Below, piece by piece: positions 16,697 through 32,325 of a stretch of DNA of 64,000 nucleotides (position 1 is its first letter; each line of letters opens with the position of its first letter). Made by a program: the position numbers and the translations under genes. Source of the DNA: Hyunsoonleella jejuensis (GTDB taxonomy: Bacteria > Bacteroidota > Bacteroidia > Flavobacteriales > Flavobacteriaceae); the NCBI RefSeq assembly GCF_900111025.1, contig NZ_FOFN01000003.1, positions 620,001 through 684,000 of the forward strand, written 5' to 3'. Under the pieces are notes generated by a model. It searched no databases and was not told where the DNA came from. It saw nothing but the letters and a program-made list of their open reading frames with translations.

Positions 16697-16734
16697 AAAA
16701 GCCTATAGGAATCAATGCTTATAGGCTTTTTTTT
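16697..16734 (+). terminator. Terminator between clpS and the HMA gene (convergent)
   Basis: Stem AAAAGCCTATA / TATAGGCTTTT (11 bp, 12-base loop) followed by a T run. It ends the prmA-clpS transcript and, read the other way, may also end the long minus-strand series whose last stop codon touches it. Confidence 0.85.
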
Positions 16735-17002
16735 AACTATTAATCCTACCTATGGCGCAACTTACAAACGATTTAGCTTTGGTAGTAAGCGCATTTTTTT
16801 CTCCAACAACAGGGTAACCTATTTGGTTTAATACTGTTTTTACCTTCTCAAGAGCGTCATCACTTTCATATTTAAACGATACGGTATTATTATCGTTATT
16901 TACTTCTAACTGAGATATGTTTTCTACTTCAGAAACCTTTTTGGTTATCGTATTGGCACATCCACCACATTTAAGGTTTTGTATTTCAAGAGTTGCTTTC
17001 AT
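16733..17002 (-). CDS. HMA-domain metal-binding protein (CopZ-like)
   Basis: 89 residues: a ferredoxin-like heavy-metal-associated domain with the metal-binding motif C12GGC15 (LKCGGCANT), then a short tail with one more cysteine (SCAIGR). The family's typical motif is MxCxxC; here KCGGC replaces it, a variant frequent in Bacteroidota whose metal (Cu, Zn or other) is uncertain. It lies 3 bases after the stop of the CstB-like gene, so it is the last gene of that transcript. Being co-expressed with sulfide/persulfide enzymes, it may handle thiophilic metals or sulfane sulfur; this is inference. Confidence 0.85.
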   Translation of the reverse strand: MKATLEIQNLKCGGCANTITKKVSEVENISQLEVNNDNNTVSFKYESDDALEKVKTVLNQIGYPVVGEKNALTTKAKSFVSCAIGRINS

Positions 17003-17005
17003 AGT

Positions 17006-18418
17006 TTATAGGGTTGTTGGACAAACAAAGTCTGTAGTTGGTAAATCTGTTTTTTTAATTGCACCAAATCCTCCTGCAATATCTATTAAGTTATTAAAAC
17101 CTCTTGCTTTTAAAATAGATGCTGCTATAACCGAACGATAACCACCTGCACAATGCAGAAAATAGGTTTCGTTTTTATCAATGGTGTTCATGTTATCATT
17201 AATATAATCTAATGCAAAGTGCTGTACATTATCGCCCTGTAGGTGCTCAGATTTATATTCTCCATCTTTCCTAACATCCAAAACCTTAATATTTTGCTCT
17301 TTAAAACGCTTTGAAAACTCATTAACAGGAATAGATGTAACCGTTTCAATATCTTTTCCAGCTTCTTTCCAAGCGTCTATACCGCCTTCCAAATAACCAA
17401 GTGTATTATCATAACCAACGCGCGACAATCGGGTAACGGTTTCTTCTTCACGACCTTTCGGTACGACAAGTAAAATAGGTTGCTTTAAATCTGTAATTAA
17501 AGCACCAACCCAAGGCGCAAATCCTCCATTTAATCCAATAAAAATAGAATTGGGAATATGCCCTTCAACAAATTCTTTTTCTGTACGTACATCAAGCACT
17601 AAAGCGCCTTCATTGTTCGCAATAGCTTCAAACGTTTCAGGATTTAATGGTGTATCTCCTTTTTTTAATACAGTTTCAAAAGCATCGTAACCCACTTTAT
17701 TCATCATCGCATTTTTTGCAAAATATTGCGGCGGAGGTGTTATGCCATCCAACACTTCTTTAATAAACTCCTCTTTGGTCATGTCTTCACGCAATGCATA
17801 ATTGGTTTTCTTCTGGTCTCCCAAAATCCCAACCGTTTCTTTACTTAAATTCTTACCACAAGCAGAACCTGCGCCATGAGCGGGATATACAATAACATCA
17901 TCCGGCAATGTCATAATTTTATGTCGTAGCGAATCGTATAGCATACCAGCTAAATCTTCTTTGGTTAAGTCTGATTTTATGGCTAAATCTGGCCTGCCAA
18001 CGTCACCTAAAAACAGTGTGTCTCCTGAGAAAATAGCATGTTCTTTACCAGTTTCATCAAGTAGTAAATATGTCGTAGACTCTAAAGTGTGTCCAGGTGT
18101 GTGCAATACTTTAATTGTAATATTTCCCAGTTTAAAAGTTTCATTATCTTTTGCTTCGTGAATATCATATTCTGTTTTTGCTCCAGGGCCAAACACGATG
18201 GTAGCACCTGTTTTTTTGGCTAAATCTACATGACCTGAAACAAAATCCGCATGAAAATGCGTTTCAAAAATGTACTTTATTGTAGCGTTTCCACTTTCAG
18301 CTTTGTCTATATATTGTTGCGTTTCGCGTAACGGATCTATAATTGCAACCTCACCATCAGATTCAATGTAGTAGGCACCTTGAGCAAGACATCCCGTATA
18401 TATTTGTTCTATTTTCAT
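17006..18418 (-). CDS. CstB-like persulfide dioxygenase-rhodanese fusion
   Basis: 470 residues with the three-part layout of staphylococcal CstB. (1) ETHE1-type non-haem-iron metallo-beta-lactamase domain, 1-230: H54, H56, D58 (THFHAD), H110 (HTPGH), D133 (SGDTLF), H181 (YPAHG). (2) A central pseudo-rhodanese (about 255-360) without an active-site cysteine; its loop reads VVPKGREEE. (3) A C-terminal rhodanese with C423 in CAGGYRSV. CstB oxidises per- and polysulfides to thiosulfate and sulfite; the same role is likely here. A second cysteine lies five residues from the C-terminus (CPTTL). Neighbours (TauE, YeeE pair, Crp/Fnr) agree with sulfide detoxification. Confidence 0.9.
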   Translation of the reverse strand: MKIEQIYTGCLAQGAYYIESDGEVAIIDPLRETQQYIDKAESGNATIKYIFETHFHADFVSGHVDLAKKTGATIVFGPGAKTEYDIHEAKDNETFKLGNITIKVLHTPGHTLESTTYLLLDETGKEHAIFSGDTLFLGDVGRPDLAIKSDLTKEDLAGMLYDSLRHKIMTLPDDVIVYPAHGAGSACGKNLSKETVGILGDQKKTNYALREDMTKEEFIKEVLDGITPPPQYFAKNAMMNKVGYDAFETVLKKGDTPLNPETFEAIANNEGALVLDVRTEKEFVEGHIPNSIFIGLNGGFAPWVGALITDLKQPILLVVPKGREEETVTRLSRVGYDNTLGYLEGGIDAWKEAGKDIETVTSIPVNEFSKRFKEQNIKVLDVRKDGEYKSEHLQGDNVQHFALDYINDNMNTIDKNETYFLHCAGGYRSVIAASILKARGFNNLIDIAGGFGAIKKTDLPTTDFVCPTTL

Positions 18419-18434: not shown

Positions 18435-18442
18435 CAAAATTA
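18435..18442 (-). promoter_or_regulatory. -7 box of the cstB-like gene
   Basis: On the minus strand this reads TAATTTTG, an exact TAnnTTTG match, 16 bases before the start codon. It is 29.5 bp from the centre of the GTAAC dyad at 18465, the same geometry as three other promoters in the window. Confidence 0.6.
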
Positions 18443-18464: not shown

Positions 18465-18478
18465 GTAACTAACATAAC
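18465..18478. promoter_or_regulatory. Degenerate GTAAC-N4-GTTAC operator upstream of cstB-like gene
   Basis: GTAAC-TAAC-ATAAC: the gene-proximal arm is perfect and the distal arm matches 3 of 5 positions. It lies 47 bases upstream of the start codon and at the same distance from the -7 box as the perfect copies at 27443, 28232 and 32312. By itself it would not be convincing; the shared position makes it a candidate Crp/Fnr-family site. Confidence 0.5.
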
Positions 18479-18486: not shown

Positions 18487-19278
18487 CTATTTTAACTCTT
18501 TATAAATGATATAAGTAGCCATTATTAAAATAAAGTAACCAAAGCTTTTCTTCAATTTTTTACCGCTTATAAATTTTGAAAGGAATACACCTAAAACAAT
18601 GCCTAATATAGAAATACCTGTAAAAATTAAAAGGAACCTCCATTCAATGTCCAGAGTTTGCACATCTCCCAAAAATCCAATCAAAGAATTTATGGTTACT
18701 ATGATTAACGATGTACCAACTGCTTTTTTCATGGGGATATTAGCCCATAACACAAGCGCGGGAACATACAAAAACCCGCCACCTGCACCGATAAGTCCAG
18801 TTACGGTTCCAATAATTAAACCTTGTACAAAGGTCTTATAATAAGGCTGGCTTTGAGATGTTTCAAGGTTTTCTCTTCTGTTTTTTATCATGGAGTAGGA
18901 GGCAACTATCATGATAATGGCAAAAAATATCATAATCCCCATAGCTTTAGTAAGGCTAAAACTACCAATACTAAAGAGTGTGTCTGGAATCCCTGGAACC
19001 AGGTAGCGTCGCGACAAGTACACAGCAACAAATGAAGGGAATGAAAATGCTAAACCTGTTTTAAAATCAACTAAGCCTTTTTTATATTTCTGGTATGTAC
19101 CAACCATAGAGGATGTGCCAACAACAAATAGGGAATATGCTGTTGCAATTACTGGGTTATATCCTAAAAGATAAACCAAAAGCGGCACTGTTAGAATAGA
19201 TCCCCCACCACCGATAAGGCCTAAGACTAAACCAACTATTAAAGCGCCAATATAGCCAAGTATCTCAATTGAATCCAT
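18487..19278 (-). CDS. TauE/SafE family sulfite or sulfonate exporter
   Basis: 263 residues, about eight membrane helices arranged as two repeats, each with the family's small-residue loops (LGLIGGGGSILTVPLLVYLLG near 18-38 and GTVTGLIGAGGGFLYVPALV near 157-176). TauE/SafE proteins move sulfite, sulfoacetate or other sulfur anions. Placed between the YeeE pair and the CstB-like gene, it probably exports sulfite or thiosulfate made by persulfide oxidation, as proposed for TauE in the staphylococcal cst locus. Its start codon directly follows the stop of the preceding gene. Confidence 0.9.
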   Translation of the reverse strand: MDSIEILGYIGALIVGLVLGLIGGGGSILTVPLLVYLLGYNPVIATAYSLFVVGTSSMVGTYQKYKKGLVDFKTGLAFSFPSFVAVYLSRRYLVPGIPDTLFSIGSFSLTKAMGIMIFFAIIMIVASYSMIKNRRENLETSQSQPYYKTFVQGLIIGTVTGLIGAGGGFLYVPALVLWANIPMKKAVGTSLIIVTINSLIGFLGDVQTLDIEWRFLLIFTGISILGIVLGVFLSKFISGKKLKKSFGYFILIMATYIIYKELK

Positions 19279-19692
19279 TTAATGCGGCAACTTATTTTTT
19301 AGGAGTCCATAAATAAATGTTCCAAAAATAGCAGCAACTATAACAATAACCATGCTCCAAACACCGGTACCTAAAAGAATATACATTGGGCCTGGACAAA
19401 CACCAACAAGCGCCCAACCAAGACCGAAAATTGTACCACCAATAATATATCGTATTAAACCATCTTCTTTCTTCGGAACATGTATTTTTGAACCGTTTAC
19501 ACTTTTTATTATACCTCTTTTTGCAAGTTGCACGAACAAAATACCCGAGGCTATAGCAGTACCTATGATACCATACATGTGAAAGGACTGAAAGCGAAAC
19601 ATCTCATAAATACGGTACCATGATACAGCTTCAGATTTCACTAAAACAATTCCAAAAAATATACCTACTAATAAAAATTTTAAAAACTTCAT
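19279..19692 (-). CDS. YeeE/YedE-type half-transporter (DUF6691-like)
   Basis: 137 residues with four hydrophobic helices. It carries the second-half signature of YeeE/YedE thiosulfate transporters, with the conserved cysteine in ALVGVCPGPMYILLG. In E. coli-type YeeE, both halves are one chain; here they are two adjacent genes, this one and the 185-residue partner 3 bases upstream, as is known for other Bacteroidota and Proteobacteria. The pair likely imports or exchanges thiosulfate or sulfane-sulfur species through cysteine relays. Direction of transport is not predictable. Confidence 0.87.
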   Translation of the reverse strand: MKFLKFLLVGIFFGIVLVKSEAVSWYRIYEMFRFQSFHMYGIIGTAIASGILFVQLAKRGIIKSVNGSKIHVPKKEDGLIRYIIGGTIFGLGWALVGVCPGPMYILLGTGVWSMVIVIVAAIFGTFIYGLLKNKLPH

Positions 19693-19695: not shown

Positions 19696-20253
19696 TTAAA
19701 AAATTAAGGGTAAAATGAAATTAGCCATGATAAGGCCACCAATAAAAAAGCCAATAACCGCTATTAAGGAAGGCTTTTGAAAACTACTTAAGCCTGTAAT
19801 GGCATGACCAGATGTGCAACCACTAGCATAACGTGTACCAAAACCTACGAGTAATCCACCCACAACAAGGACTATCAAGGCCGTTGGTGATGCAAGAACG
19901 TCTAAACTAAAAATTTCGTTGGGCACCAATGTTTTCCCAGGATTGTTAAATCCTAAATTTTCAAGTTCGCTAACTGTGGTTGGATTTAAATTTGTTCCAG
20001 AATCATTAGATAAAAATTCAACTGCAAAAAATCCACCAATAATGGCACCGAGGACTACAGTTAAATTCCAAATTTGATCTCTCCATCTAAAATTGAAAAA
20101 GTCAACAAACTTTCCCGCGCCTGCAATAGTGCACATGGTTCTTAGGTTTGAAGACATGCCAAAGGTTTTACCAAAATAGAGTAAAATGGCCATTACTAAG
20201 GTTATTAGTGGGCCAGAAATGTACCAAGGCCAAGGGTCTAATATATGAGTCAT
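19696..20253 (-). CDS. YeeE/YedE-type half-transporter with GCTSGH motif
   Basis: 185 residues, about five hydrophobic segments. The diagnostic sequence is ASGCTSGHAITGLSSF (cysteine near residue 143), the sulfur-relay cysteine of YeeE/YedE thiosulfate transporters. It forms a two-gene transporter with the 137-residue gene 3 bases downstream. First gene of the transport set after the regulator; the 105-base gap to the regulator contains a TTTAGTTT...AAACTAAA inverted pair and two TTTGCGAA copies but no clear -7 box, so transcription may come from the regulator gene. Confidence 0.88.
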   Translation of the reverse strand: MTHILDPWPWYISGPLITLVMAILLYFGKTFGMSSNLRTMCTIAGAGKFVDFFNFRWRDQIWNLTVVLGAIIGGFFAVEFLSNDSGTNLNPTTVSELENLGFNNPGKTLVPNEIFSLDVLASPTALIVLVVGGLLVGFGTRYASGCTSGHAITGLSSFQKPSLIAVIGFFIGGLIMANFILPLIF

Positions 20254-20358: not shown

Positions 20359-20991
20359 CTATGATAATATTACAATTTTATTTCGTCCTAATTTTATTTT
20401 GCTTTCGTTTTCTAACTGTTTAAGAAGCCTAGATACAACCACGCGCGATGTATTTAAATCTTCAGCAATATCTTGATGTTTTATGGATATTGTATTGGTT
20501 TCATCGATCATAGCCATATTTTTTAAATATTTGTATAAGCGTTCATCCATTTTCATAAATGCCAGACTATCAATAGCTTCAAGCATTTCTTCAAAGCGAA
20601 TTTGATAGCTTTGAAGTATAAAATTTCTCCAACTGGCATTATTATCAAACCATGTTTGCATGTATTGCACAGGAATCATAATTAAACTGGAGTCTTTTTC
20701 AGCAATAGCCCTTACTTTACTTTTTGCTATACCTAGGCAGCAAGTTAATGACATGGTACAGGTTTCCCCAGCTTCTAGAAAATATATCAATATTTCATGG
20801 CCATCGTCATCTTCTCTAATAATTTTAATGTCGCCAACTAATAATAGGGGAATAAAATTTAGAGGTTGATCGATATCAATAATTATATCGTCTTTCTTGA
20901 AGTTTTTGAATATACCGTTTTCTGAAATTTCAGCAATTAAATCCTCATCAAAAACATGGGAAAATTTTTGTTGTAATAGATTTTGATTCAT
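20359..20991 (-). CDS. Crp/Fnr-family regulator with a C-x5-CC cluster
   Basis: 210 residues from ATG 20991; an upstream in-phase TTG at 21006 would overlap the -7 box TATTTTTG, so ATG is chosen and the mRNA would be nearly leaderless. Residues 1-120 form the cyclic-nucleotide-binding-type sensor; about 150-205 the winged helix-turn-helix (HQDIAEDLNTSRVVVSRLLK). Three cysteines, C78, C84 and C85 (ETCTMSLTCCLG), lie in the sensor where cAMP-type proteins have the phosphate-binding cassette, so ligand sensing by cysteine chemistry (sulfide, persulfide, metal or redox) is plausible. It sits in front of sulfur genes and is the best candidate to bind the shared GTAAC-N4-GTTAC sites. Confidence 0.88.
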   Translation of the reverse strand: MNQNLLQQKFSHVFDEDLIAEISENGIFKNFKKDDIIIDIDQPLNFIPLLLVGDIKIIREDDDGHEILIYFLEAGETCTMSLTCCLGIAKSKVRAIAEKDSSLIMIPVQYMQTWFDNNASWRNFILQSYQIRFEEMLEAIDSLAFMKMDERLYKYLKNMAMIDETNTISIKHQDIAEDLNTSRVVVSRLLKQLENESKIKLGRNKIVILS

Positions 20992-20994
20992 ACC

Positions 20995-21002
20995 CAAAAA
21001 TA
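20995..21002 (-). promoter_or_regulatory. -7 box of the Crp/Fnr gene, implying a leaderless mRNA
   Basis: Minus-strand TATTTTTG ends 4 bases before the ATG at 20991, so transcription should begin at or next to the start codon. An imperfect dyad, CCCAAAAATAA...TTATTTGGG, surrounds the box. Confidence 0.5.
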
Positions 21003-21040
21003 ACAATTTAAAATGTATTAAATTATTATTTGGGTTTACT

Positions 21041-21058
21041 AACCTATTAAATTAGGTT
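21041..21058. promoter_or_regulatory. AACCTA-N6-TAGGTT dyad upstream of the Crp/Fnr gene
   Basis: A 6+6+6 inverted repeat with the arm spacing of CRP-type sites (N6). It lies 50 bases upstream of the regulator start codon. It differs from the GTAAC-N4-GTTAC sites, although AACC-N10-GGTT also occurs upstream of the cstB-like gene at 18447-18464. Confidence 0.35.
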
Positions 21059-21071
21059 TTGAAGTAAAACG

Positions 21072-21257
21072 TTATTTTTTTACGCCTAGTTTTTGCAATA
21101 TAGTTTCTAACAAGCACCATTTTGTAAATGCCGATTGTATTAAGTTTACACCAATAAAAACGGTGAACCACATCCAATTTTGGTGCACGTAAAATGTGAG
21201 CACTACACTTAGTAATACCATCGTACCTACAATAACTCTGAAATATGTATTAAGCAT
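21072..21257 (-). CDS. DUF2892 (YgaP-type) membrane protein
   Basis: 61 residues, two membrane helices with the DUF2892 consensus: an R in the first turn (YFRVIVGTMVLLSV), then WMWFTVFIGVNLIQSAFTKWCLLE. In E. coli YgaP this segment is fused to a rhodanese and anchors it in the membrane; here it is free-standing next to sulfur-metabolism genes, so it may dock the CstB-like enzyme or YeeE transporters. The single cysteine in TKWCLLE is typical of the family. It lies 19 bases downstream of the P-II-like gene on the same strand. Confidence 0.87.
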   Translation of the reverse strand: MLNTYFRVIVGTMVLLSVVLTFYVHQNWMWFTVFIGVNLIQSAFTKWCLLETILQKLGVKK

Positions 21258-21276
21258 ATTATTTCAATTTTTAATA

Positions 21277-21582
21277 TTATATAAATTTTTCAATAGGAAC
21301 CATAATCGCTTTTACAGGATTATTGGTTTCAAGGTTTTTATTAAATTCTTTTATCAAGTCAAACAGTTTTTCAATATTTAAATCCTCAGCAAACGAAAAA
21401 AACATGCGAGACTCGTTACCGAATTTTTCACCAGGAAACCAACTTGAAGTCATTAGTAATGATGAGCTATTTTTATAACCATCAATATCCGAGCTACTAA
21501 AATTTTCAATATTGGCTTTTTTGAAGAGTTTTAAAACGTCTTTTTTAAATTCTTCTACAGCTGTGACTATTACTAATTTCAT
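21277..21582 (-). CDS. Small P-II-like (ferredoxin-fold) protein after the RND pump
   Basis: 101 residues, no membrane segment. MKLVIVTAVEEFKKDVLKLFKKANI is a beta-alpha opening like that of P-II/PII-like and CutA signalling proteins, and the end (NNPVKAIMVPIEKFI) gives a final beta strand. The middle has a GEKFGNESRMFFSF loop, shorter than the T-loop of GlnB, and no Tyr-51 uridylylation site is seen. It lies 6 bases after the RND pump gene and before the DUF2892 gene, so it is in that operon. I treat it as a probable PII-like regulator of the pump; the fold call is from pattern only. Confidence 0.6.
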   Translation of the reverse strand: MKLVIVTAVEEFKKDVLKLFKKANIENFSSSDIDGYKNSSSLLMTSSWFPGEKFGNESRMFFSFAEDLNIEKLFDLIKEFNKNLETNNPVKAIMVPIEKFI

Positions 21583-21588
21583 ATAGTT

Positions 21589-24500
21589 TTATTTAAAATT
21601 CTTCTTTTCTATCATGTAATACACTAATGGTACAACGAGCAATGTTAATACCGTAGATACTATAGTTCCTCCCATTAACGAGATGGCTAATCCTTGGAAT
21701 ATAGGGTCGAATAAGATTACGAATGCGCCAATTACTACCGTACCTGCAGTAAGTAAAATAGGAGTGGTACGTACAGCACCGGCTTCAATAGCTGCTTGTT
21801 TTAACGGAACGCCTTCTGCAGTTCTTAAGTTGATAAAATCGATTAATAATACCGAATTCCTCACCATAATTCCTGCTAGTGCAATCATGCCTATAAAGGA
21901 AGTTGCTGTGAAAAAGGCTCCCATAATCCAATGGCCTAGAATAATCCCTATTAGCGATAAAGGTATGGCCACCATCATAACTACTGGTGCTTTAAAGTTT
22001 TGAAACCACCCCACAATTAAGATGTAAATTAAGATAATGGCTCCTAAAAAGGCAATACCTAAATCCCTGAACACTTCTAGGGTAATTTGCCATTCTCCAT
22101 CCCATTTTACCGTATAGTCATCTTCAAATTCTGGCTGACCCAAGTACATTTCATTTATTTTAAAGCCTTTTGGTAACTGGATTTCTTTTAATTTTTCTTC
22201 CATACCAAGTATAGCGTAGGCAGGACTCTCTAACTCGCCGGCCATATCTGCCAAAACATAAACCACACGTTTTTGGTTTTTACGATAAATACTTTTAGCA
22301 GCTGTACTTTTATTAATGGTTACCACATCTGCGATAGGTACCATACTGCCTTGATTTGATTTTACTTTTAGCTGTGAAATATCTGTAATAGTAGATTTTT
22401 CTTGTTCATCCAATACCAATACCAGAGGGATTTGATTTACGGCATCTTCATCATAAAGATTTGTAATAGCTCTGTTGGAAAGTGCCATATTCATCGTGTA
22501 CGCAATTTGTTGTGGTGCAACACCATACAGCATCGCTTTTTCTTTATTGATTTCAAATTGGTATTCGGTTTGGTCTGCTTCCACCATCCAGTCAATATCC
22601 ACTACATCTGTAGTATGCTTTAAAATGGTTTGAATGTTGTTAGCAATACTCATCTGCTCATCATAATCTGGTCCGTAAACTTCAGCAACAATAGTAGATA
22701 ATACTGGTGGTCCAGGTGGCACTTCTACAAGCTTTACGTTGGCGTTGTATTTTGAAGCTATCTTCTGAATATCTGGACGCAACAATTTTGCAATACCATG
22801 GCTCTGTATGGAGCGGTCTGATTTATCCAATAGGTTTACTTGAATGTCGGCCATATTACTTCCACCACGCAAATCGTAATGACGTACTAAGCCATTGAAG
22901 GTAATTGGCGCTGAGGTGCCAATGTAATTTTGGTAATTCACCACTTCTGGTCTAGTAGATAAGTACTGAGAAATTTCTTTAGTAACTACAGCAGTACGTT
23001 CTAGCGTAGTGCCTTCAGGCATGTCTATAACCACCTGAAATTCGTTTTTATTATCAAATGGTAACATTTTTACAGCTACCGATTTGGTAAAAAACAGCAG
23101 CGTCGTTCCTATTAAAAGTGCAAAAGTTCCTCCTAAAAACAACCAACGTTTTCCTCTATTTTCTAACAAAGGTCTTTCAAATTTGTTATAAACCTTATAA
23201 ATCCTAGTGTCTTCAACGGCCTTCTCTGGTTTTTCTTTTGCTCCCTTTTTATCTTTTTCCCTTAAGAAAATATAGCCCAAATAAGGGGTAATGGTAAGAG
23301 CAACGAATAAGGATAATATCATGGCGATAGATGCTCCTATGGGCATTGGTGCCATATAGGGTCCCATTAACCCCGAGACGAAGGCCATAGGCAATACTGA
23401 TGCAATTACGGTAAAGGTGGCTAAAATAGTGGGGTTTCCTACTTCGTTAATGGCGTAAAGAGCTGCCTGTTTAAAAGGCAAACGCTTCATTTTAAAATGC
23501 CTGTGCATATTTTCGGCAATAATAATAGAATCGTCTACCACAATTCCTGTTACAAACACTAAAGCAAATAATGTAATTCTGTTAAGTGTATAATCTAGCA
23601 TAAAGTAGCTCAACAGCGTTAACGCAAAGGTGATTGGAACAGATAGAAATACTACCAAACCACCTCGCCAACCCATGGCAAGCATTACTACAATAGTTAC
23701 GGCTATAATTGAGCCTATAAGGTGAAGAAGTAATTCTGAAACTTTATGAGATGCGGTTTCACCATAGTTTCTGGTAACTTCAACATGAACTTCATCTGGA
23801 ATTAGAGAGGTTCGTAAATGCTCTATTTTATCGATGATAACTTCTGCTATTTTCATAGCATCTGCACCTTTTCTTTTAGCTACCGAAATGGTAACTGCAG
23901 GATATTCGGAATGGAATTCAGATGCTTTATCACTGCCTTTCCCAAAACCTAGACTCACATAATTTTGTGGCACTTCTGGTCCATCAATAATTTTAGCAAC
24001 TTGCTTAAGGTATATAGGTTGGTTTTGTTGCACACCAACTACTAGATTTTCAACATCTGTTGCCGATTCTAAAAATTTACCGGTATTTACTAAAAACTCT
24101 GTATCGTTCTTATCAAAACTGCCAGAATTTAATTGACTATTGTTTGCTTTAATCATCTCAGAAACCGACAGGAAATCCAATCCGCTTGCTGCTAATTTGT
24201 CTTTATCTAAAACTACACGTAGTTGACGGTTTCTACCACCAATTTTTTTTGTGATTGCTACATCTTTTACTTTCTTAATCTCAGTCTCTAACTCTTGTGC
24301 CATTTGGCTTAACTGATAATCGTCATAACTTTCGCTCCATAAAGTTAAGCCTAGTATGGGTACATCATCAATAGCACGTGTTTTTACCAGCGGAAATGTA
24401 ACACCTGCTGGCATTTGGTCCATATGTTTGTTTATTTCATTGTATAGTTTTACGAAACTTCGCTCAATATCTTCACCTACGTAAAATTGTACAATAACCA

Positions 24501-24783
24501 TCCCTTGCTCTTTCATGGATGTGGAATACACATATTCTACACCTTTAATGTTGGAGATTAATTGCTCTAGGGGTTTAATAACACGAGATTCCACTTCGGT
24601 AGGACTTGCACCAGGATACCCTACAAAAATATCGGCTATAGGCACATCAATTTGCGGTTCTTCTTCTCTTGGAATTAAGAATGAACTATACACGCCAACT
24701 ATCATAAATACAATCATTAACAACACAGTTAACTTAGATTGCATAAAGATTTTAGCAATTTTTCCTGCGATACCTTCTTTCAT
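21589..24783 (-). CDS. RND-family efflux pump, inner-membrane subunit
   Basis: 1064 residues, the AcrB/MexB/CusA superfamily: twelve membrane helices and two large periplasmic loops. The proton-relay pair D417-D418 lies in helix 4 (GIVVDDSIIIAEN), typical of the drug/hydrophobe (HAE-like) branch, and the CusA-type metal relay is not seen. The N-terminal end (SFLIPREEEPQIDVPIADI) and the C-terminal GIMVRNSVLLIDFI also match. It forms a tripartite pump with the adaptor and TolC genes just upstream. Substrate unknown; the operon continues into a P-II-like and a DUF2892 gene, which suggests a link to sulfur stress. Confidence 0.94.
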   Translation of the reverse strand: MKEGIAGKIAKIFMQSKLTVLLMIVFMIVGVYSSFLIPREEEPQIDVPIADIFVGYPGASPTEVESRVIKPLEQLISNIKGVEYVYSTSMKEQGMVIVQFYVGEDIERSFVKLYNEINKHMDQMPAGVTFPLVKTRAIDDVPILGLTLWSESYDDYQLSQMAQELETEIKKVKDVAITKKIGGRNRQLRVVLDKDKLAASGLDFLSVSEMIKANNSQLNSGSFDKNDTEFLVNTGKFLESATDVENLVVGVQQNQPIYLKQVAKIIDGPEVPQNYVSLGFGKGSDKASEFHSEYPAVTISVAKRKGADAMKIAEVIIDKIEHLRTSLIPDEVHVEVTRNYGETASHKVSELLLHLIGSIIAVTIVVMLAMGWRGGLVVFLSVPITFALTLLSYFMLDYTLNRITLFALVFVTGIVVDDSIIIAENMHRHFKMKRLPFKQAALYAINEVGNPTILATFTVIASVLPMAFVSGLMGPYMAPMPIGASIAMILSLFVALTITPYLGYIFLREKDKKGAKEKPEKAVEDTRIYKVYNKFERPLLENRGKRWLFLGGTFALLIGTTLLFFTKSVAVKMLPFDNKNEFQVVIDMPEGTTLERTAVVTKEISQYLSTRPEVVNYQNYIGTSAPITFNGLVRHYDLRGGSNMADIQVNLLDKSDRSIQSHGIAKLLRPDIQKIASKYNANVKLVEVPPGPPVLSTIVAEVYGPDYDEQMSIANNIQTILKHTTDVVDIDWMVEADQTEYQFEINKEKAMLYGVAPQQIAYTMNMALSNRAITNLYDEDAVNQIPLVLVLDEQEKSTITDISQLKVKSNQGSMVPIADVVTINKSTAAKSIYRKNQKRVVYVLADMAGELESPAYAILGMEEKLKEIQLPKGFKINEMYLGQPEFEDDYTVKWDGEWQITLEVFRDLGIAFLGAIILIYILIVGWFQNFKAPVVMMVAIPLSLIGIILGHWIMGAFFTATSFIGMIALAGIMVRNSVLLIDFINLRTAEGVPLKQAAIEAGAVRTTPILLTAGTVVIGAFVILFDPIFQGLAISLMGGTIVSTVLTLLVVPLVYYMIEKKNFK

Positions 24784-24787
24784 AATA

Positions 24788-24813
24788 AGCCCCCTTTAAT
24801 TCCCCCAAAGGGG
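24788..24813. repeat. CCCCTTT...AAAGGGG intergenic repeat
   Basis: Inverted repeat CCCCTTT / AAAGGGG with a 9-base loop AATTCCCCC, between the adaptor and the RND gene. A related string, TCCCCTTTGAGAAGGATTG, occurs at about 24876-24894 inside the 3' end of the adaptor gene. From memory such CCCC/GGGG strings are dispersed repeats in flavobacteria. Confidence 0.55.
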
Positions 24814-24833
24814 AAAAACTGAACGGGTAAATT

Positions 24834-25970
24834 TTAATTAGTACTTTTTTTTATGTTTGATTCCGTATTGGATTCTTCCCCTTTGAGAAGGATTGAGGAT
24901 GGGCTTATCTTTGCACCATTATATAATTTTCCTTCTGCAGAAACTATGTAAGCTTCATCTGCATTTAAACCTGACAATACCTCTACTTGATCTCCAAAAG
25001 TTCTGCCTAAACGCAACCAGCGTAAAATGGCTGTGTTACTTTGGCTTACCGTATAAACTCCAGATAATTGACCATTGGTTACAATGGCTTCATGAGGAAT
25101 TAGCACTATTGTTGATGCTCCATGTCTTTCCACTGGAAACTGAACCGTTGTAAACATACCAGATAGTATATTGGCATCAGTTTTTTCCAAATCTATTTTT
25201 ACTAAATATTGTCCTCCCGTATGTTTAGCAGAAGTGCTTACTTCCTTAACTTTTCCTTTAATGGATGTGGTAAGGGATTTTACCAAAACATTAACCGTTG
25301 TTCCAGTTTCTATTTCTGAAATCTCGGTTTCAGGAACCATGGCCATTACCTCAAAATCGTTAGGAGACTCTAATGATATTAAGGGTTGCCCAGGATTCGC
25401 CATATCACCTTCTTTAACAGTTTTTGAAGTAATTATTCCTGAAAACGGTGCGGTAATATTCGAGTATGTGAATTGAGCCGCAATCTCATTTTTCATTTGT
25501 TTAACAGCTTCTAATCGGGCTTTAGTCATTTCATAATTGGCGGTCATATCATCCATTTCCTTTTGTGATGCACTGTTATCGGCAAATAAGTTTTTAAAAC
25601 GATTATAATTCTTTTCAGCATTATTAAATGCTGCGGTGGCTTCTGTAATACTTGCATTAATCTGGGCCTGTTTTGCTTGTAAATCGCTATTGTTTATAGA
25701 GATTAATAATTGCCCTTTTTTTACCTTGTCGCCAACATTAACGTTTACCTTGCTAACGTGCCCCATTATTCTAGTGCTTAAGTCTGCACTATTTTTGGCT
25801 TGAACTTTTCCACTAACCGATAGTAATGTGTGGTTCCCATTAGTTTCTACCTGATTTACCTTTACAGAAACTATTGGCGCATTATCTGCTACAGTTTTTT
25901 TGCCTTCGCCGCCGCAACTTGCCAATAGTAATATCATAGAAATTGTTAGGATTGTATATTTATATTTCAT
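24834..25970 (-). CDS. RND efflux periplasmic adaptor (membrane-fusion protein)
   Basis: 378 residues. Lipoprotein signal with Cys19 (LLASCGG), then the adaptor layout: barrel-sandwich first half (KVNVNVGDKVKKGQLLISIN), a helical hairpin (about 85-155), second half (APFSGIITSKTVKEGDMANPG), beta-barrel and membrane-proximal domain (VLIPHEAIVTNGQLSGVYTV). It joins the RND pump to TolC. The last 25 or so residues (after GAKISPSSILLKGEESN) are encoded by what looks like an inserted dispersed repeat, so the C-terminus may differ from close relatives. Confidence 0.93.
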   Translation of the reverse strand: MKYKYTILTISMILLLASCGGEGKKTVADNAPIVSVKVNQVETNGNHTLLSVSGKVQAKNSADLSTRIMGHVSKVNVNVGDKVKKGQLLISINNSDLQAKQAQINASITEATAAFNNAEKNYNRFKNLFADNSASQKEMDDMTANYEMTKARLEAVKQMKNEIAAQFTYSNITAPFSGIITSKTVKEGDMANPGQPLISLESPNDFEVMAMVPETEISEIETGTTVNVLVKSLTTSIKGKVKEVSTSAKHTGGQYLVKIDLEKTDANILSGMFTTVQFPVERHGASTIVLIPHEAIVTNGQLSGVYTVSQSNTAILRWLRLGRTFGDQVEVLSGLNADEAYIVSAEGKLYNGAKISPSSILLKGEESNTESNIKKSTN

Positions 25971-26082
25971 GTTTATTAATTTGATGTTCTTATTTCATTA
26001 TATATTTCAACAAGCAGTTTGTTTATTGCGTTCTTATTAGAAAGACATTTGCCGAATACTGCAGTTGCTTACTGTGTGCTAT

Positions 26083-27393
26083 TTACTCCTTTGTTAAAAA
26101 TTTTAAATGCGCTTGCGCATAGTTGTACTCAAAAATGGTTTGATAATACTCTAGTTGTTTTTGTGCGTATTGTGTTTCAGCGAGCAACAATTCTGATGTC
26201 TTTTCTAAACCTTCTTTAAATCTATTAGAACGTATTCTCAATGATTCTTCCGATTGTTCTAATGCCAAAGCGGTAAGTTTTAATTTATTTTCAGCATCTA
26301 ATAAATTGCGTTTTGCTTTGTTTAATTCTAAATTGCTTTGTGATACATATTGGTCATATTCTAATTTAGATTTTTCAAATTCTGCTCTGCTTTTTTGGGC
26401 TTTCCCAAAGCGCTTGGACCCCTGAAAAATATTCCAGCTTAATTGTGCACCAAAAGTGTACCCATTGGCATCAGCTTGAAAAATCTGGTCGTCGTACAAT
26501 TCATAGCTTCCAAATGCATTAAGCCTTGGTAAAAAAGCCATTTTATCAGCTTTATTGTTAGCTTCAAACGCATTTGTTGCCAATTGCATCGCCTTAATAT
26601 CCGATCGGTTTTCTGATATTGCTGTATCTTCTAACGCAAAAGAGGAAACCGTCAGGTCATCCATTGGTTTGTACACCACATAGTTTTTGTCGTTCATTAA
26701 AAATGATATATAGTTTGATGCGTTTAACACATTACTTTTAGCCATTTGCAATTGGTTTTTTACTTCGGTTACTCTTACCTCAACACTTAGCACATCGGCA
26801 CGTTGCAAATACCCTTGTTTAAAATTATCATCAGCTATATTTTTGTTGGCGTTTGCGGCCTCTAGTGCCGTTTCTAAAACAGCAACGCCTTTGTAGGCAA
26901 GTTGTAATTGCATGTAAGCTTTATCAATTTCAAAAACTAAAAAATCCTGTGTACGTTGTGTTTTTAAAGACATGGCCTCCATTTTAGATTTAGCAGCTCT
27001 ACGTTGGTAAATGCCATCTATATTTATTAGAGGTTGCTGGATTTCTAGTTTGGTAGCGTAGTTTTCAATCTGCGAGGGATTGTTTAATAATGAAGGGTTG
27101 AAATCGTTTTGTGTTAAAATTTCCTGATTTAATTTAGCGCCAAACGCCATTAATGGGTTTGTTGTAGCCATAGCTGTATGGCTTGCAGTAATGTTTGGTA
27201 AGAATACCGCATTGGTTTGTCTATAATCTGCTCTTGCTAGTTTAAAGGCTTCTTCAGAAATTTTAATGCTTGTGTTATTTTCAAGTGCTCTAGATAAAAC
27301 ATCCGTTTTTGTAATGGGTTGTACTTCTTGCGCATTTAAGCATATATTTATTAATAGTAAAAGCAATATTGCAATGTGAAATTTGTTTTTCAT
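26083..27393 (-). CDS. TolC-family outer-membrane efflux protein
   Basis: 436 residues with a Sec signal peptide (cut after CLNAQ) and the two long coiled OEP repeats of TolC proteins (about 40-235 and 250-430). It is the outer-membrane exit duct of the tripartite pump. First gene of the efflux operon: a perfect GTAAC-N4-GTTAC site and a TATTTTTG -7 box lie directly upstream. The 112-base gap to the adaptor gene holds no identifiable feature. Confidence 0.93.
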   Translation of the reverse strand: MKNKFHIAILLLLLINICLNAQEVQPITKTDVLSRALENNTSIKISEEAFKLARADYRQTNAVFLPNITASHTAMATTNPLMAFGAKLNQEILTQNDFNPSLLNNPSQIENYATKLEIQQPLINIDGIYQRRAAKSKMEAMSLKTQRTQDFLVFEIDKAYMQLQLAYKGVAVLETALEAANANKNIADDNFKQGYLQRADVLSVEVRVTEVKNQLQMAKSNVLNASNYISFLMNDKNYVVYKPMDDLTVSSFALEDTAISENRSDIKAMQLATNAFEANNKADKMAFLPRLNAFGSYELYDDQIFQADANGYTFGAQLSWNIFQGSKRFGKAQKSRAEFEKSKLEYDQYVSQSNLELNKAKRNLLDAENKLKLTALALEQSEESLRIRSNRFKEGLEKTSELLLAETQYAQKQLEYYQTIFEYNYAQAHLKFLTKE

Positions 27394-27412
27394 AGACTAA
27401 TAGTTTGTAGTA

Positions 27413-27420
27413 CAAAAATA
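27413..27420 (-). promoter_or_regulatory. -7 box of the tolC-adaptor-RND operon
   Basis: Reads TATTTTTG on the minus strand, 20 bases before the tolC-like start codon and 29.5 bp downstream of the centre of the operator at 27443. A start of transcription near 27408 would put the operator at -41.5. Confidence 0.65.
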
Positions 27421-27442
27421 CATCTAGCTACTATTGAAATTT

Positions 27443-27456
27443 GTAACCTATGTTAC
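27443..27456. promoter_or_regulatory. GTAAC-N4-GTTAC operator, efflux operon
   Basis: Perfect 5+4+5 dyad GTAAC-CTAT-GTTAC, 50 bases upstream of the tolC-like gene. The spacing of the arms equals that of FNR-type sites (TTGAT-N4-ATCAA). The same dyad recurs at 28232 and 32312. Confidence 0.7.
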
Positions 27457-27480
27457 TTACCATAACAATAGTTATAATAA

Positions 27481-27508
27481 AAAAGCACTCCTTTTACAGA
27501 GTGCTTTT
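27481..27508 (-). terminator. Terminator of the DUF2202 gene
   Basis: Perfect 10-bp stem AAAAGCACTC / GAGTGCTTTT with an 8-base loop; a T run follows on the minus strand. It separates the DUF2202 transcript from the efflux operon promoter. Confidence 0.88.
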
Positions 27509-27534
27509 AATCAAACCAATTAATCCAACCAAAA

Positions 27535-28179
27535 TTAATTACATTTTTCTTTATTTGCTATTATGATACTAGTGTAAGCTTCTTGAGATAAAAATTGAGG
27601 GGTATAGGAGCTCCCATTTTTTTCAATAGCGGTTACAAAACTTCTTAAATGATTTCGAGAACCACACTTTAAACTTTCAAAAACTGATATTATCCTTTCG
27701 TTAGAACTTGCGTCGATATACACTTGCAGATCTACAATATCTAAATCCTCAATGGTGGCTCCAATTTTAAGTGCGTTTACATCGCTAGTAGCTCCATCAA
27801 TTATAAATTGATCATATAATGATTGTAATTCTTTATTTGCAAATTCGCCAGTGGGTAATATCTCGTATTCAATAGTGTATTGTTTTAGCAGGTTTTCTAT
27901 TGCATTCATATGGGTTTGTTCGCTATTTTTAATATTAGCGAATTGATTAATAGACCATAAATTATTTAAATATATGTATGTGTCTCTTGCTAATTTTTCT
28001 TCCTCCAACATAAATAGTAAAGCAGCTTTGTCTTTTTCTACGAATGTTTCACTTATGAAATCATTATTTATACCGTTATTTTCCATATCGTCATTGTTAT
28101 CACTACAGGTATTTAAAAATGTAAATGATACCGCTAATATTATAATAGTAACTAAGCGCTTTGTCAATAATTTTTTCAT
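27535..28179 (-). CDS. DUF2202 ferritin-like lipoprotein
   Basis: 214 residues. Lipoprotein signal (lipobox LNTC, Cys25) and a DUF2202 four-helix domain from about 50: FMLEEEKLARDTYIYL supplies Glu residues, SEQTHMNAIENLL a His, and KCGSRNHLRSFVTAIE a second His. These are where ferritin-like proteins bind a di-metal centre, but the family's metal and function are unknown. Its promoter carries a perfect GTAAC-N4-GTTAC site and the gene ends in a strong terminator, so it is monocistronic. It lies between the efflux operon and the divergent copper-receptor genes. Confidence 0.85.
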   Translation of the reverse strand: MKKLLTKRLVTIIILAVSFTFLNTCSDNNDDMENNGINNDFISETFVEKDKAALLFMLEEEKLARDTYIYLNNLWSINQFANIKNSEQTHMNAIENLLKQYTIEYEILPTGEFANKELQSLYDQFIIDGATSDVNALKIGATIEDLDIVDLQVYIDASSNERIISVFESLKCGSRNHLRSFVTAIEKNGSSYTPQFLSQEAYTSIIIANKEKCN

Positions 28180-28201
28180 GTCATTTAGGTTTAATCACAT
28201 A

Positions 28202-28209
28202 TAAATGTA
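28202..28209 (-). promoter_or_regulatory. -7-like box of the DUF2202 gene
   Basis: Minus-strand TACATTTA, one base from TAnnTTTG, 22 bases before the start codon. Its distance from the operator centre is again 29.5 bp. Confidence 0.5.
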
Positions 28210-28231
28210 CACAATAAGAATAGGGCTATCA

Positions 28232-28245
28232 GTAACTTATGTTAC
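28232..28245. promoter_or_regulatory. GTAAC-N4-GTTAC operator, DUF2202 gene
   Basis: Perfect dyad GTAAC-TTAT-GTTAC, 53 bases upstream of the DUF2202 start. It also lies in the divergent gap 125 bases before the Cys-rich peptide gene, but the spacing fits only the minus-strand gene. Confidence 0.7.
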
Positions 28246-28328
28246 ATATTAAAATAGAGAATGAGAACTTTTTAGACTAAATTAAAAGATTTGATTTGGT
28301 ATGTTTTTTTTTTAAAACATGATAAAAG

Positions 28329-28362
28329 TTTGTAAATAAAATATCTGGCTATTTTATATTTG
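28329..28362 (+). promoter_or_regulatory. Promoter of the Cys-rich peptide and copper-receptor genes
   Basis: TTTG (28329-28332) and TATATTTG (28355-28362), 22-base spacer. The -7 box ends 7 bases before the ATG at 28370, so the mRNA should be leaderless or have only a few leader bases. Confidence 0.65.
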
Positions 28363-28369
28363 CACGGTA

Positions 28370-28747
28370 ATGAAGATAAGCTCACATATAGCTCTTGTTT
28401 TATTAAGTGCTTTAATACTGGTTAATAGTATTAAAACATCCTTAACTTATGCTTATTTTGAATTAGACCCTATTGGTTTTATTGAGAACCTGTGTGAAAA
28501 CAAAGACCAGCCGGAACTTGAGTGCAACGGTAAGTGTCATTTAAAAAAACTCGCACAATCGGAAGATAAAAAACAAAGAACCCCAGAAAGTATTATTGAT
28601 TTCAAAGAAATCATCCTTTATCCAAATCAAGAAACAAACTTTTTGTTTTCCAAGCTAGCTTACAATAAAAAACTCGCTATTGTTGCTTATCAAAACTTAT
28701 ATTCTTTTGTGAATAGTTACGATTTTTTTCATCCCCCAAGAGCGTAA
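28370..28747 (+). CDS. Small exported Cys-containing protein upstream of copper-type receptor
   Basis: 125 residues: an N-terminal membrane or signal segment (about 5-25), then cysteines C42, C52 and C56 (LCENK...LECNGKCHLKKL) and a C-terminal half without recognised fold, ending HPPRA. I know no family name for it. The C-x9-CxxxC-H cluster could bind a soft metal. It is the first gene after a strong promoter and 66 bases before a TonB receptor with OprC-like copper ligands, so it probably works with that receptor. Short histidine/proline-ended exported proteins at this place recur in flavobacteria as far as I recall, but the function is not established. Confidence 0.7.
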   Translation: MKISSHIALVLLSALILVNSIKTSLTYAYFELDPIGFIENLCENKDQPELECNGKCHLKKLAQSEDKKQRTPESIIDFKEIILYPNQETNFLFSKLAYNKKLAIVAYQNLYSFVNSYDFFHPPRA

Positions 28748-28813
28748 TTAACTTCTATTACAGGTAGTAATCACTACATCAATTATTTAAGTTAAAAAAT
28801 TAAAATACTATAA

Positions 28814-30916: not shown

Positions 30917-30936
30917 TATAAATATAAGTTTATTAC

Positions 30937-30969
30937 AACAAAGGAGCGCATTTTATGCGCTCCTTTGTT
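30937..30969 (+). terminator. Terminator-like hairpin after the receptor gene
   Basis: Perfect 15-bp stem AACAAAGGAGCGCAT / ATGCGCTCCTTTGTT with a TTT loop. There is no long T run after it, so it may act as an RNA 3' end, in both directions (also for the small gene at 30989). Confidence 0.75.
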
Positions 30970-30988
30970 ATTACGAATAAAGTTTTCA

Positions 30989-31138
30989 TTACTTGTCTTT
31001 AGGTTCATCGCTACGCTTGCCGCCGCTGGCCATGAATTTTATTAAGAAGCCAATAAGGAATAAACAAGCTAGTGCAAAAACTCCAATCATTATTACACCA
31101 TTGTTCCAATTGAATAATGCTATATTTTGAGTTATCAT
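30989..31138 (-). CDS. 49-residue single-span membrane protein
   Basis: MITQNIALFNWNNG precedes one hydrophobic helix (about 15-36, with GVIMIGVFALACLFLIGF) and a charged cytoplasmic tail GGKRSDEPKDK. It runs from ATG 31138 to TAA 30989, with a possible -7-like TACTTTTA at 31177-31170. Small proteins of this form occur near oxidase and cytochrome genes; here the cytochrome gene is 122 bases upstream on the same strand. No family name is known to me; coding is supported by the clean helix-plus-tail design and the hairpin after it. Confidence 0.6.
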   Translation of the reverse strand: MITQNIALFNWNNGVIMIGVFALACLFLIGFLIKFMASGGKRSDEPKDK

Positions 31139-31259
31139 AATTATATATTTTTCCCGTTTTTAACCAGACTAAAAGTATTAATAGTAAGTATTATGAAATA
31201 TGATATTTGTCAGTATGTAAAAACTTAGATAAAAGTTTATCTGAATTATCATTCATAAT

Positions 31260-32264
31260 TTACTTTACAAAACTAATGCTCCATATTCCTCTTACTTCAT
31301 TAATATCGTAACCAATTGCTTTATCATCTGGATATAACTTTCTCAACTTGTTAAGCGTAGCTGCTTCTAGAGTTTCGTTTGGTTTGCCATGACATTGTAA
31401 ACACATAGTATTTGTTACTATCGGGTAATAAACATGTACATTTTCATCGCTTTCTTTAACTATAGGTTTTGGTTCTTCATTTTTTGCAATTGTTTCATTA
31501 AAAAACTTTATATGCTCTAGTTCTTCAATATTGGCCTTATTTTTCTTGTTTCGTGGTCTATCGGAAACTCGTTTAATTTTTGCATTATATACGTCAGCCA
31601 TACTATCTGTTAACGGGTATGCCCGCTCATTACAGAATGCTATGGCTTCTAAAGTTCCTTTTTTTTGAATGGTACCTATTAAATTCTTACCAAGTACCAC
31701 TTTTGTAGATAAGGCATATTTTAAACCGCGTTCTGCATATGGTAAATCCTGAAAGTTTGTTTGTGCACGTTTTTTGCCCCTACCGGTTCCCATGGCATTT
31801 CCTTTGCCTTTACGCTTTGCTTTTTCGTCGTTAAAGTGGGCTTTAAACCAATCCGGTTGCTCAATGTTATTATCATACATGTAATCTGCAATTTGTCTTA
31901 TGGTTTCCTCAGGATATGGTGTTTTAGGCATGACACCAAATCGTCTTACAGCACCAAACATCTTAGCATCTTTTTCATTCGGGTTTTTTATCCAAGTTTG
32001 CATCGCCGTAATAAATTGGTCTTTAGTAGTAGCGTCATCAATGTAATGTTTCTTAATGGCTATCATTGGGGGTGCTATTCTGTTGTCATGGTCTGCCGAA
32101 GGGCTGTGGCATACATAGCAATTGGTTTCCATTAATTTTTTTCCCGGATGGTTGTTGTTATTGGTCTGTTTATCTTTAACAGAATAGTCTGATTTTTTAG
32201 AATTATTACAGCTTAAAAACAAAATAAGTGCGAGAAGGAGTAAAGGGAGTAAAAGATTTTTCAT
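31260..32264 (-). CDS. Lipoprotein c-type cytochrome fused to a DUF3365 domain
   Basis: 334 residues. Lipobox FLSC (Cys19); first haem site C49YVCH53 with the likely Met ligand in GVMPKTPYP; a basic, low-complexity linker (KAKRKGKGNAMGTGRGKKR, near 150-168); then a DUF3365/Tll0287-type domain with a second haem site C288LQCH292. A two-haem periplasmic protein on the outer face of the inner membrane or in the outer membrane, suited to electron transfer or haem-based sensing. Its promoter has the perfect GTAAC-N4-GTTAC site. Which partner it reduces is unknown. Confidence 0.87.
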   Translation of the reverse strand: MKNLLLPLLLLALILFLSCNNSKKSDYSVKDKQTNNNNHPGKKLMETNCYVCHSPSADHDNRIAPPMIAIKKHYIDDATTKDQFITAMQTWIKNPNEKDAKMFGAVRRFGVMPKTPYPEETIRQIADYMYDNNIEQPDWFKAHFNDEKAKRKGKGNAMGTGRGKKRAQTNFQDLPYAERGLKYALSTKVVLGKNLIGTIQKKGTLEAIAFCNERAYPLTDSMADVYNAKIKRVSDRPRNKKNKANIEELEHIKFFNETIAKNEEPKPIVKESDENVHVYYPIVTNTMCLQCHGKPNETLEAATLNKLRKLYPDDKAIGYDINEVRGIWSISFVK

Positions 32265-32281
32265 GCTTTCGTATTAAACCT

Positions 32282-32289
32282 TAAAATTA
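32282..32289 (-). promoter_or_regulatory. -7-like box of the cytochrome gene
   Basis: Minus-strand TAATTTTA (TAnnTTTA), 17 bases before the start codon and 29.5 bp from the operator centre, the same geometry as at the other three promoters. Confidence 0.5.
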
Positions 32290-32311
32290 CCTTGCAATCT
32301 GTAAATACATT

Positions 32312-32325
32312 GTAACTTAAGTTAC
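32312..32325. promoter_or_regulatory. GTAAC-N4-GTTAC operator, cytochrome gene
   Basis: Perfect dyad GTAAC-TTAA-GTTAC (fully palindromic including the centre), 48 bases upstream of the cytochrome start codon. Confidence 0.7.

Follow-up and report, generated by a model that had tools for sequence, protein, structure and literature searches.

What signal is read by a Crp/Fnr regulator that carries closely spaced cysteines in its sensor domain and stands in front of genes for sulfur transport and oxidation? This question is raised by a 64,000-nucleotide stretch of DNA from Hyunsoonleella jejuensis (hereafter the window), in which a 210-residue regulator is encoded on the minus strand at 20359 to 20991, stop codon included (translation and Pfam). 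An initial annotation had described the protein as a possible thiol or metal sensor, with vicinal cysteines as the reactive group. We now think it reasonably likely that the regulator is an activator of the Crp/Fnr type, that it controls a reactive-sulfur regulon and that it senses persulfide or polysulfide through C78 and C84. The parts of this reading differ in strength: the operator and target genes are well supported by comparisons of sequence, the regulator probably acts as an activator, and we infer persulfide or polysulfide at C78–C84 as the effector and its chemistry.

The regulator and its former cyclic nucleotide site

The protein has both the sensor domain and the HTH_Crp domain of the Crp/Fnr superfamily. 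Pfam finds cNMP_binding at residues 29-117 and HTH_Crp_2 at residues 150-209, both above the gathering cut-off, and an AlphaFold model matches CRP/FNR chains. Translation confirms that the only cysteines are the three first described, C78 (20758-20760), C84 (20740-20742) and C85 (20737-20739), whose codons span 20737-20760 on the minus strand and whose segment reads GETCTMSLTCCLG. In CRP, a glutamate and an arginine of the phosphate-binding cassette contact the cyclic nucleotide. When the regulator is aligned with 11 gammaproteobacterial CRP-like proteins using MAFFT, M80 stands in the column of the FGE glutamate and S91 in the column of the RSA arginine, and each of these residues is retained in 110 of 112 relatives. 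With both residues replaced, the regulator is not a CRP of the cAMP type and cAMP sensing can be ruled out, which bears out the earlier view that the cyclic nucleotide site is lost. Regulators of the FNR [4Fe-4S] type have an N-terminal cysteine cluster together with one internal cysteine. No cysteine lies N-terminal of residue 78 in the regulator, so this type of cluster is also ruled out, and the initial annotation was correct on this point as well.

Conservation of the cysteines

Relatives were gathered through a pattern-based scan, giving 75 loci, and through searches of 149 family and 395 phylum genomes, giving the remainder. Among 145 extracted Crp proteins, 133 were distinct and 112 were kept as a near set, the conditions being that C78 was present, that identity was at least 44% and that Asn84 paralogues were left out. 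In this near set, part of which was fetched by peptide patterns (one containing C78), C78 is found in 112 of 112 proteins as a condition of inclusion, C84 in 110 and C85 in 108, and exactly three cysteines are found in 103. No residue other than Cys occupies position 78 in any aligned protein of at least 44% identity; below that level it is Ser in L060_1 and L139_1 and Phe in CRP-like rows. The relatives L060 and L139, which lack C84 and C85, carry a Cys in place of Ser91, as if the partner thiol had shifted within the cassette, and each adjoins a second, more distant Crp gene.

Freedom from the C78 pattern bias can be obtained with whole-protein or profile searches, which were used to find 100 phylum-wide loci (40 from the family and 60 from the phylum, hand-picked among the ranked matches listed). 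Here C78 is present in 100/100, C84 in 67/100 and C85 in 61/100, so that the expectation of three invariant cysteines in orthologues, nearly borne out in the near set, does not extend to the phylum. By class, 55 loci have all three cysteines, 12 have C78 and C84, 6 have C78 and C85, and 27 have C78 alone, which in 23 cases is the sole Cys of the modelled columns. A tree from which the motif columns were left out calls for at least 4 changes in the C84 trait and at least 7 in the C85 trait. The classes indicate that C78 is the family hallmark, C84 its usual partner and C85 an addition.

Relatives are also found on plasmid records beyond the phylum, in Ruegeria, Paracoccus, Thioclava, Chelativorans, Azospirillum, Thiothrix and others (protein searches). 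In 17 proteobacterial loci, hand-picked from the plasmid matches (24 + 37 records), the regulators have a CX5C motif (C78, C84) and lack C85 in 17/17, and these two are the only cysteines in 14/17. The initial annotation had put the chemistry in a reaction of the vicinal pair C84–C85. This core must be rejected, because C85 is the most variable of the three: it is missing in 12 of the 67 phylum relatives that retain C84 and in all 17 proteobacterial relatives examined. The idea of a thiol sensor holds in part, with C78–C84 the more likely thiol pair and, judging from these alignments, the pair most constrained across phyla.

Other plasmids give a mixed picture. Among Bacteroidota, Spirosoma (C78, C85) and Pontibacter (C78, C84) have plasmids with crp-TauE-PDO-YeeE clusters (PDO, persulfide dioxygenase), DUF81 being read as TauE, and a Persicobacter plasmid whose regulator has all three cysteines holds no such cluster. 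Neither a clostridial plasmid (L280; C78, C84) nor a Paenibacillus locus (L279; C78) shows YeeE or TauE genes in the part covered, so sulfur loci are not the only setting of the motif; L279 does have an MBL hydrolase upstream. Crp/Fnr matches near metal genes on Lactiplantibacillus and Leuconostoc plasmids were not counted as family, two of them aligning without the motif.

Some members can do without a dithiol. C84 is missing while C78 is still there in 33/100 phylum loci, 27 loci have C78 alone (10 of them beside sulfur genes), and in one of these (L146) operators of the kind described below precede two genes of its cluster. Members with C78 alone would be accounted for if the pocket bound a low-molecular-weight thiol or persulfide non-covalently, with C78 merely contacting the ligand, for which PrfA with glutathione is a precedent (cited in PMC7315123). 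Such binding leaves the co-conserved C84 unexplained, and we give it the smallest chance of all the readings considered.

The predicted sensor and the case for heme

In the AlphaFold model of the regulator (mean pLDDT 89.1), C84 and C85 fall within a short helix (82-86) that follows the C78-bearing loop, in the model's least confident part: the cassette, with a mean pLDDT of 67 for residues 81-90. The closest solved sequence is 3DV8 (E 6e-21), where the places of C78 and C84 are both occupied by Cys. This structure also ranks first by Foldseek E-value with the regulator model, and it is absent from the best 50 matches of VIA-align, where Vfr and CRP chains come first.

The likeness to 3DV8 brings in a heme-based sensor, in which C78 and/or M80 would hold heme and the signal would be a gas, heme-bound sulfide or the redox state. 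PgRsp, for which 3DV8 served as the modelling template, is a heme-binding Crp/Fnr protein with Cys76, Met78 and His85 (PMC6955866); C78 and M80 are near invariant in the near set, and the predicted regulon includes a c-type cytochrome. The CooA heme ligands are Pro2 and Cys75/His77 (PMC6955866). A hand alignment puts C78 at the Cys75 place, and the regulator is not a CooA of the R. rubrum type, since residue 2 is not Pro (MNQ...) and Met80 stands where His77 would fall. Single Ala changes of Cys76, Met78 and His85 in PgRsp kept the heme spectrum, with the data not shown there (PMC6955866). Heme would also leave C84/C85, and a CX5C that supplies the only cysteines of 14/17 proteobacterial relatives, unexplained, and the predicted targets are mostly sulfur genes. 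We consider heme unlikely, if still the first of the alternatives.

Gene neighbourhood

The sulfur and persulfide neighbours named in the initial annotation are confirmed by Pfam. On the same strand, the regulator is followed by a YeeE/YedE pair, with one half at 19696-20253 (Sulf_transp, PF04143) and its partner at 19279-19692 (DUF6691/Sulf_transp; PF20398, PF04143), then by a TauE/SafE family exporter (18487-19278, PF01925) and an MBL-fold protein with two rhodanese domains (17006-18418; PF00753, with PF00581 on two stretches), named as PDO type from its domain make-up. An HMA-domain protein (16733-17002, PF00403) ends the cluster. Directly upstream, also on the minus strand, lie genes for a small YgaP-like/DUF2892 membrane protein (21072-21257, ends set by hand; PF11127 on 21081-21260), a PG0541-like transporter-associated protein (21277-21582; NCBIfam NF045581 at 20.6 bits, below the cut-off of 45), an RND pump (21589-24783, ACR_tran), a membrane-fusion protein (24834-25970, HlyD_D23) and an outer-membrane efflux protein (26083-27393, OEP). 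Further up the same strand are two predicted regulon members, a DUF2202 protein (27535-28179, PF09968) and a c-type cytochrome with a Tll0287 domain (31260-32264; PF11845, PF00034).

A tRNA-Arg(ACG) gene lies directly beside or upstream of crp in 5 of 7 relatives scanned with ARAGORN. The window has its tRNA-Arg(ACG) at 32436-32510, so that crp and the tRNA are separated by about 11 kb (20992-32510), which include three of the four predicted promoters. This insert contains the efflux genes, DUF2202, a TonB receptor and the cytochrome; on its plus strand, a small protein and the TonB-dependent receptor (28370-30916) diverge from the DUF2202 gene.

The sulfur context recurs among relatives, and orthologues beside the same genes retain the three cysteines, in keeping with the initial annotation. 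Within the fetched stretch, mostly about 5 kb either side of the regulator, a YeeE, TauE, PDO or rhodanese gene is found in 44/55 three-cysteine loci versus 0/15 gammaproteobacterial CRP loci, a weak control because these come from a different phylum and the profiles used to scan them were flavobacterial. The remaining 11/55 have none of these genes within that stretch, and the other classes have one in 7/12 (C78 and C84), 4/6 (C78 and C85) and 10/27 (C78 alone). Of the 75 pattern-found loci, 60 (L005-L064) hold the YeeE half and its partner in 59 cases each, PDO in 58 and TauE in 57; the other 15 are the distant gammaproteobacterial CRP loci taken as controls. In the proteobacterial loci, an MBL hydrolase follows on the same strand in 12/17 and YeeE or DUF6691 in 9/17, often with DUF2892, a sulfurtransferase or a sulfate permease added downstream. 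Two Azospirillum loci and the Thiothrix locus have DUF2892 and neither an MBL hydrolase nor YeeE/DUF6691 in the stretch shown.

The own genome (3.48 Mb) has four PF04143 matches, which make up two YeeE pairs, each by one of two close family members. The second pair lies about 5 kb from a 46%-identical paralogue (C78, Asn84, C85). This paralogue's locus (272-10676 in L261, C4:598000-614000) also holds, besides the YeeE pair, four rhodanese proteins, a porin, and molybdopterin, 4Fe-4S and NrfD-like (polysulfide-reductase-like) genes named from sequence.

A metal sensor, in which three thiolates bind Cu(I), Zn or an Fe-S cluster, would suit the three close cysteines, the HMA protein of 10/55 three-cysteine loci, the RND efflux genes near some loci, the three promoters in which the operator precedes HMA, and the metal ATPase and cueR upstream of crp in Ruegeria B32. 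A third cysteine is missing from the CX5C of 14/17 proteobacterial relatives, however, no HMA gene is seen in 45/55 three-cysteine loci within the stretch covered, and genes for sulfur transport and oxidation predominate. This reading is very improbable, ranking only above non-covalent binding.

Operator and promoter layout

Bioinformatics can also reveal where such a regulator may bind. Across relatives, an operator GTAAC-N4-GTTAC, 22 nt before a TAnnTTTG promoter box, precedes yeeE, tauE and PDO genes. In the crp-yeeE gap the palindrome, for instance TAAGTAACATTTATTACAAA, occurs in 56 of 75 distinct gap sequences. The strict form GTAA-N6-TTAC occurs in 44/75, against a mean of 0.35 and a maximum of 3 in 200 shuffles that preserve base composition only, as do all the gap, window and proteobacterial shuffles used here. 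These gaps have 4.17 palindromes per kb, the rest of the same loci 0.05. Spacing is just as regular: among 509 site flanks, with both strands counted for each site, the box lies at 22 nt in 99; spacings of 21 and 23 nt account for 14 and 4, and no other value exceeds 2. Promoters of the Bacteroidota are of the -7/-33 type, and class II Crp/Fnr activators sit at about -41. The centre of the 14-bp palindrome is about 33 bp before the box centre, which would be near -41 relative to the predicted start points, a position that would fit the class II activator layout.

With one box mismatch allowed, 207 distinct promoters were collected, of which 193 have a gene. These genes are 61 YeeE, 59 PDO, 26 TauE, 8 OEP and 7 cytochromes of the window's type, then 3 each of DUF2202, HMA, DUF983-like, SQR-like and crp itself, 2 each of three further kinds, and 11 singletons; the SQR-like and DUF983-like labels come from cluster membership and sequence. 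Care must be taken in reading this mix, which is partly expected because the loci were chosen by their regulator; the fixed spacing is not expected on that account.

The same mix bears on a general thiol redox switch, in which a plain C78–C84 disulfide would form on peroxide or oxygen and the sulfur genes would belong to an oxidative-stress regulon. OsmC and peroxiredoxin genes do lie near some relatives, and single predicted promoters precede thioredoxin- and peroxiredoxin-like genes (named from sequence). Against this, YeeE, PDO and TauE make up 146/193 predicted promoters, a share partly expected from the choice of loci. We regard a general redox switch as improbable, placing it between the heme and metal readings.

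In the window, a weight matrix built from 93 promoters, own genome excluded, was applied at a threshold of 12 bits over all 64 kb. It gives four matches, versus a mean of 0.05 in 20 windows shuffled in 200-base blocks (best shuffled score 12.1 bits). All four are on the minus strand. One predicted operator, with one imperfect half-site, lies before the PDO gene (18465-18478, 21.4 bits; box TAATTTTG at 18435-18442, 22 nt downstream). The strongest, GTAACATAGGTTAC at 27443-27456 (34.1 bits; box TATTTTTG at 27413-27420), lies before the OEP-MFP-RND genes, with the outer-membrane efflux protein first. Another, between the DUF2202 gene and the divergent receptor genes, faces DUF2202 (28232-28245, 27.1 bits; box TACATTTA, one mismatch, at 28202-28209), and the last precedes the Tll0287-type cytochrome gene (32312-32325, 22.9 bits; box TAATTTTA, one mismatch, at 32282-32289). 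In the window's own crp-yeeE gap, neither a palindrome search nor the weight matrix finds a site; yeeE may here be transcribed from upstream genes or from a diverged promoter.

The motif by itself is weak evidence, and promoter spacing carries the argument: the exact palindrome occurs at 9 sites in the own genome versus 7 for a reversed control and is not clearly enriched. Of these 9 sites, 4 fall in the window or the paralogue's cluster. Loose matching is uninformative, since GTAAC-N4-GTTAC with two mismatches has 38 window matches versus 29 expected.

Two further candidates were set aside. A site in the paralogue's cluster, GTAACAAATGTTAC (C4:604668; about 6669 in L261), has no TAnnTTTG box 22 nt towards the rhodanese gene, and scores 18.1 bits on the other strand, where it faces no gene start. 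CTTGA-N7-TCAAG, seen upstream of crp in 53/88 loci and considered as a second operator, is part of tRNA-Arg, found there in the 5 of 7 relatives noted above. Elsewhere in the own genome (L266, C2:642818), a GTAAC-N4-GTTAC site with a near box at 22 nt precedes a sulfite-oxidase-like gene (named by sequence), which is a possible further member of the regulon.

A probable operator code

Variation in the operator can be used to connect it with the regulator. In the recognition helix, 67 loci carry Val at residue 184, 32 carry Glu and one carries Ala. Among loci with scored class II sites, Val184 loci have at operator base 3 A in 33, G in none and a tie in 2, and Glu184 loci have G in 8, A in 1 and a tie in 4. 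The residue thus fits the base (Val-A, Glu-G) in 41/42 untied loci, with 6 of 48 tied (Fisher p 7.6e-8, ties dropped and kinship ignored). By half-site, Val184 goes with 90 A and 5 G of 102, and Glu184 with 27 G and 9 A of 36. Changes of CRP Glu181 to Val alter the preference at this base, as the older CRP literature records. Kinship limits these statistics: independent pairs number 2 on supported branches and 3 on all branches; in the two supported contrasts the operator changes the same way in 1.8 and the opposite way in 0.0 on average, ties being scored G. In CRP of E. coli, the residues that read this G:C base pair are Glu181 and Arg185 (PMC11253593). The match of residue and base ties the operator sites to this Crp/Fnr family.

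The proteobacterial relatives extend the pattern. Those aligned have Glu at the 184 place, and GTGA-N5-TCAC is found in 14/17 of their gaps versus a shuffle mean of 0.036; for the unannotated L289, the 110 bases that follow crp were taken as the gap. The motif was noticed in the first loci (4/8) and then met in 10/10 new loci.

Taken across both groups, we lean, if only slightly, towards an apparently undescribed cross-phylum Crp/Fnr family in which a CX5C thiol switch for sulfane sulfur (often CX5CC in Bacteroidota) replaces the cyclic-nucleotide pocket. It would be the activator counterpart, in Bacteroidota and Rhodobacterales, of the ArsR- and CsoR-type persulfide repressors, with an operator code, Val to GTAA and Glu to GTGA, that can be read from sequence.

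A proposed mechanism

For the preferred reading, a persulfide- or polysulfide-responsive activator, the following steps can be proposed. The regulator, presumably dimeric like its superfamily, would bind GTAAC-N4-GTTAC near -41, at sites predicted by comparative sequence, and would activate the promoters of YeeE/YedE, TauE and PDO-rhodanese genes, and here also those of the RND-efflux, DUF2202 and cytochrome genes. The former cAMP pocket would have been converted to a thiol site. On a build-up of persulfide or polysulfide, a link of the di-, tri- or tetrasulfide type would join C78 to C84 across what was once the phosphate-binding cassette, and this link would switch the dimer to its DNA-binding form. 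C85 may serve as an accessory or resolving thiol. The induced enzymes would then clear the sulfur, the link would be reduced, and the response would be switched off.

If true, use of the Crp/Fnr fold for reactive sulfur would be a new sensing chemistry in this superfamily. The operator allows direct tests of the regulon, of the effector and of what each cysteine does, and Paracoccus and Ruegeria offer a second case.

Comparison with known systems

Among the matches listed in searches of the open-access literature, no Crp/Fnr persulfide sensor was found and no dedicated persulfide sensor was named for Bacteroidota. Dithiol persulfide sensors are known in other folds: CstR, SqrR and BigR use Cys pairs (PMC9774590), and Crp/Fnr proteins are absent from the sensors in section 6 of that article. 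The pattern of such sensors, a conserved Cys pair in a regulator encoded beside persulfide-detoxifying genes, is found here as C78–C84 in the window's group and in 17/17 proteobacterial relatives, the C78-alone members being exceptions. BigR and SqrR come close in having two conserved cysteines that react with sulfane sulfur (PMC7315123, PMC9774590), and BigR, of ArsR type, controls a yeeE-yedE-pdo2 operon in Acinetobacter (PMC7315123). Both, however, are ArsR-family repressors of another fold, whereas the regulator described here has the Crp/Fnr fold and an activator-type site position. Hyphomicrobium has two ArsR-type repressors in this role (PMC12423496). FisR is an activator with three conserved cysteines that form disulfide and tetrasulfide links (PMC9774590), but belongs to the Fis family, with a fold unrelated to Crp/Fnr.

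Within the Crp/Fnr superfamily itself, A1S_1182 of Acinetobacter baumannii is a Crp-type regulator persulfidated in sulfide-exposed cells (PMC7315123). It differs in being 50% identical to E. coli Crp, with its Cys opposite the ligand pocket, and the parts of PMC7315123 that describe it draw no tie to the yeeE/pdo operon. HcpR uses Met68 (PMC12750200). The nearest studied protein by motif, and set beside the regulator by motif alone, is PgRsp of Porphyromonas gingivalis, a Bacteroidota Crp/Fnr protein outside the known families and modelled on 3DV8, whose Cys76-x-Met78 resembles C78-x-M80 (PMC6955866). PgRsp differs in binding heme and in acting on heme uptake and oxidative-stress genes (PMC6955866). 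3DV8 itself, a Eubacterium rectale Crp/Fnr protein from structural genomics, shares Cys at the C78 and C84 places but has none at the C85 place. E. coli CRP shares the fold and the GTnA half-site, with Glu181 at the Val184 place, and differs in the cassette, where the Glu and Arg seen in the aligned gammaproteobacterial CRP-like proteins are replaced in the regulator by M80 and S91.
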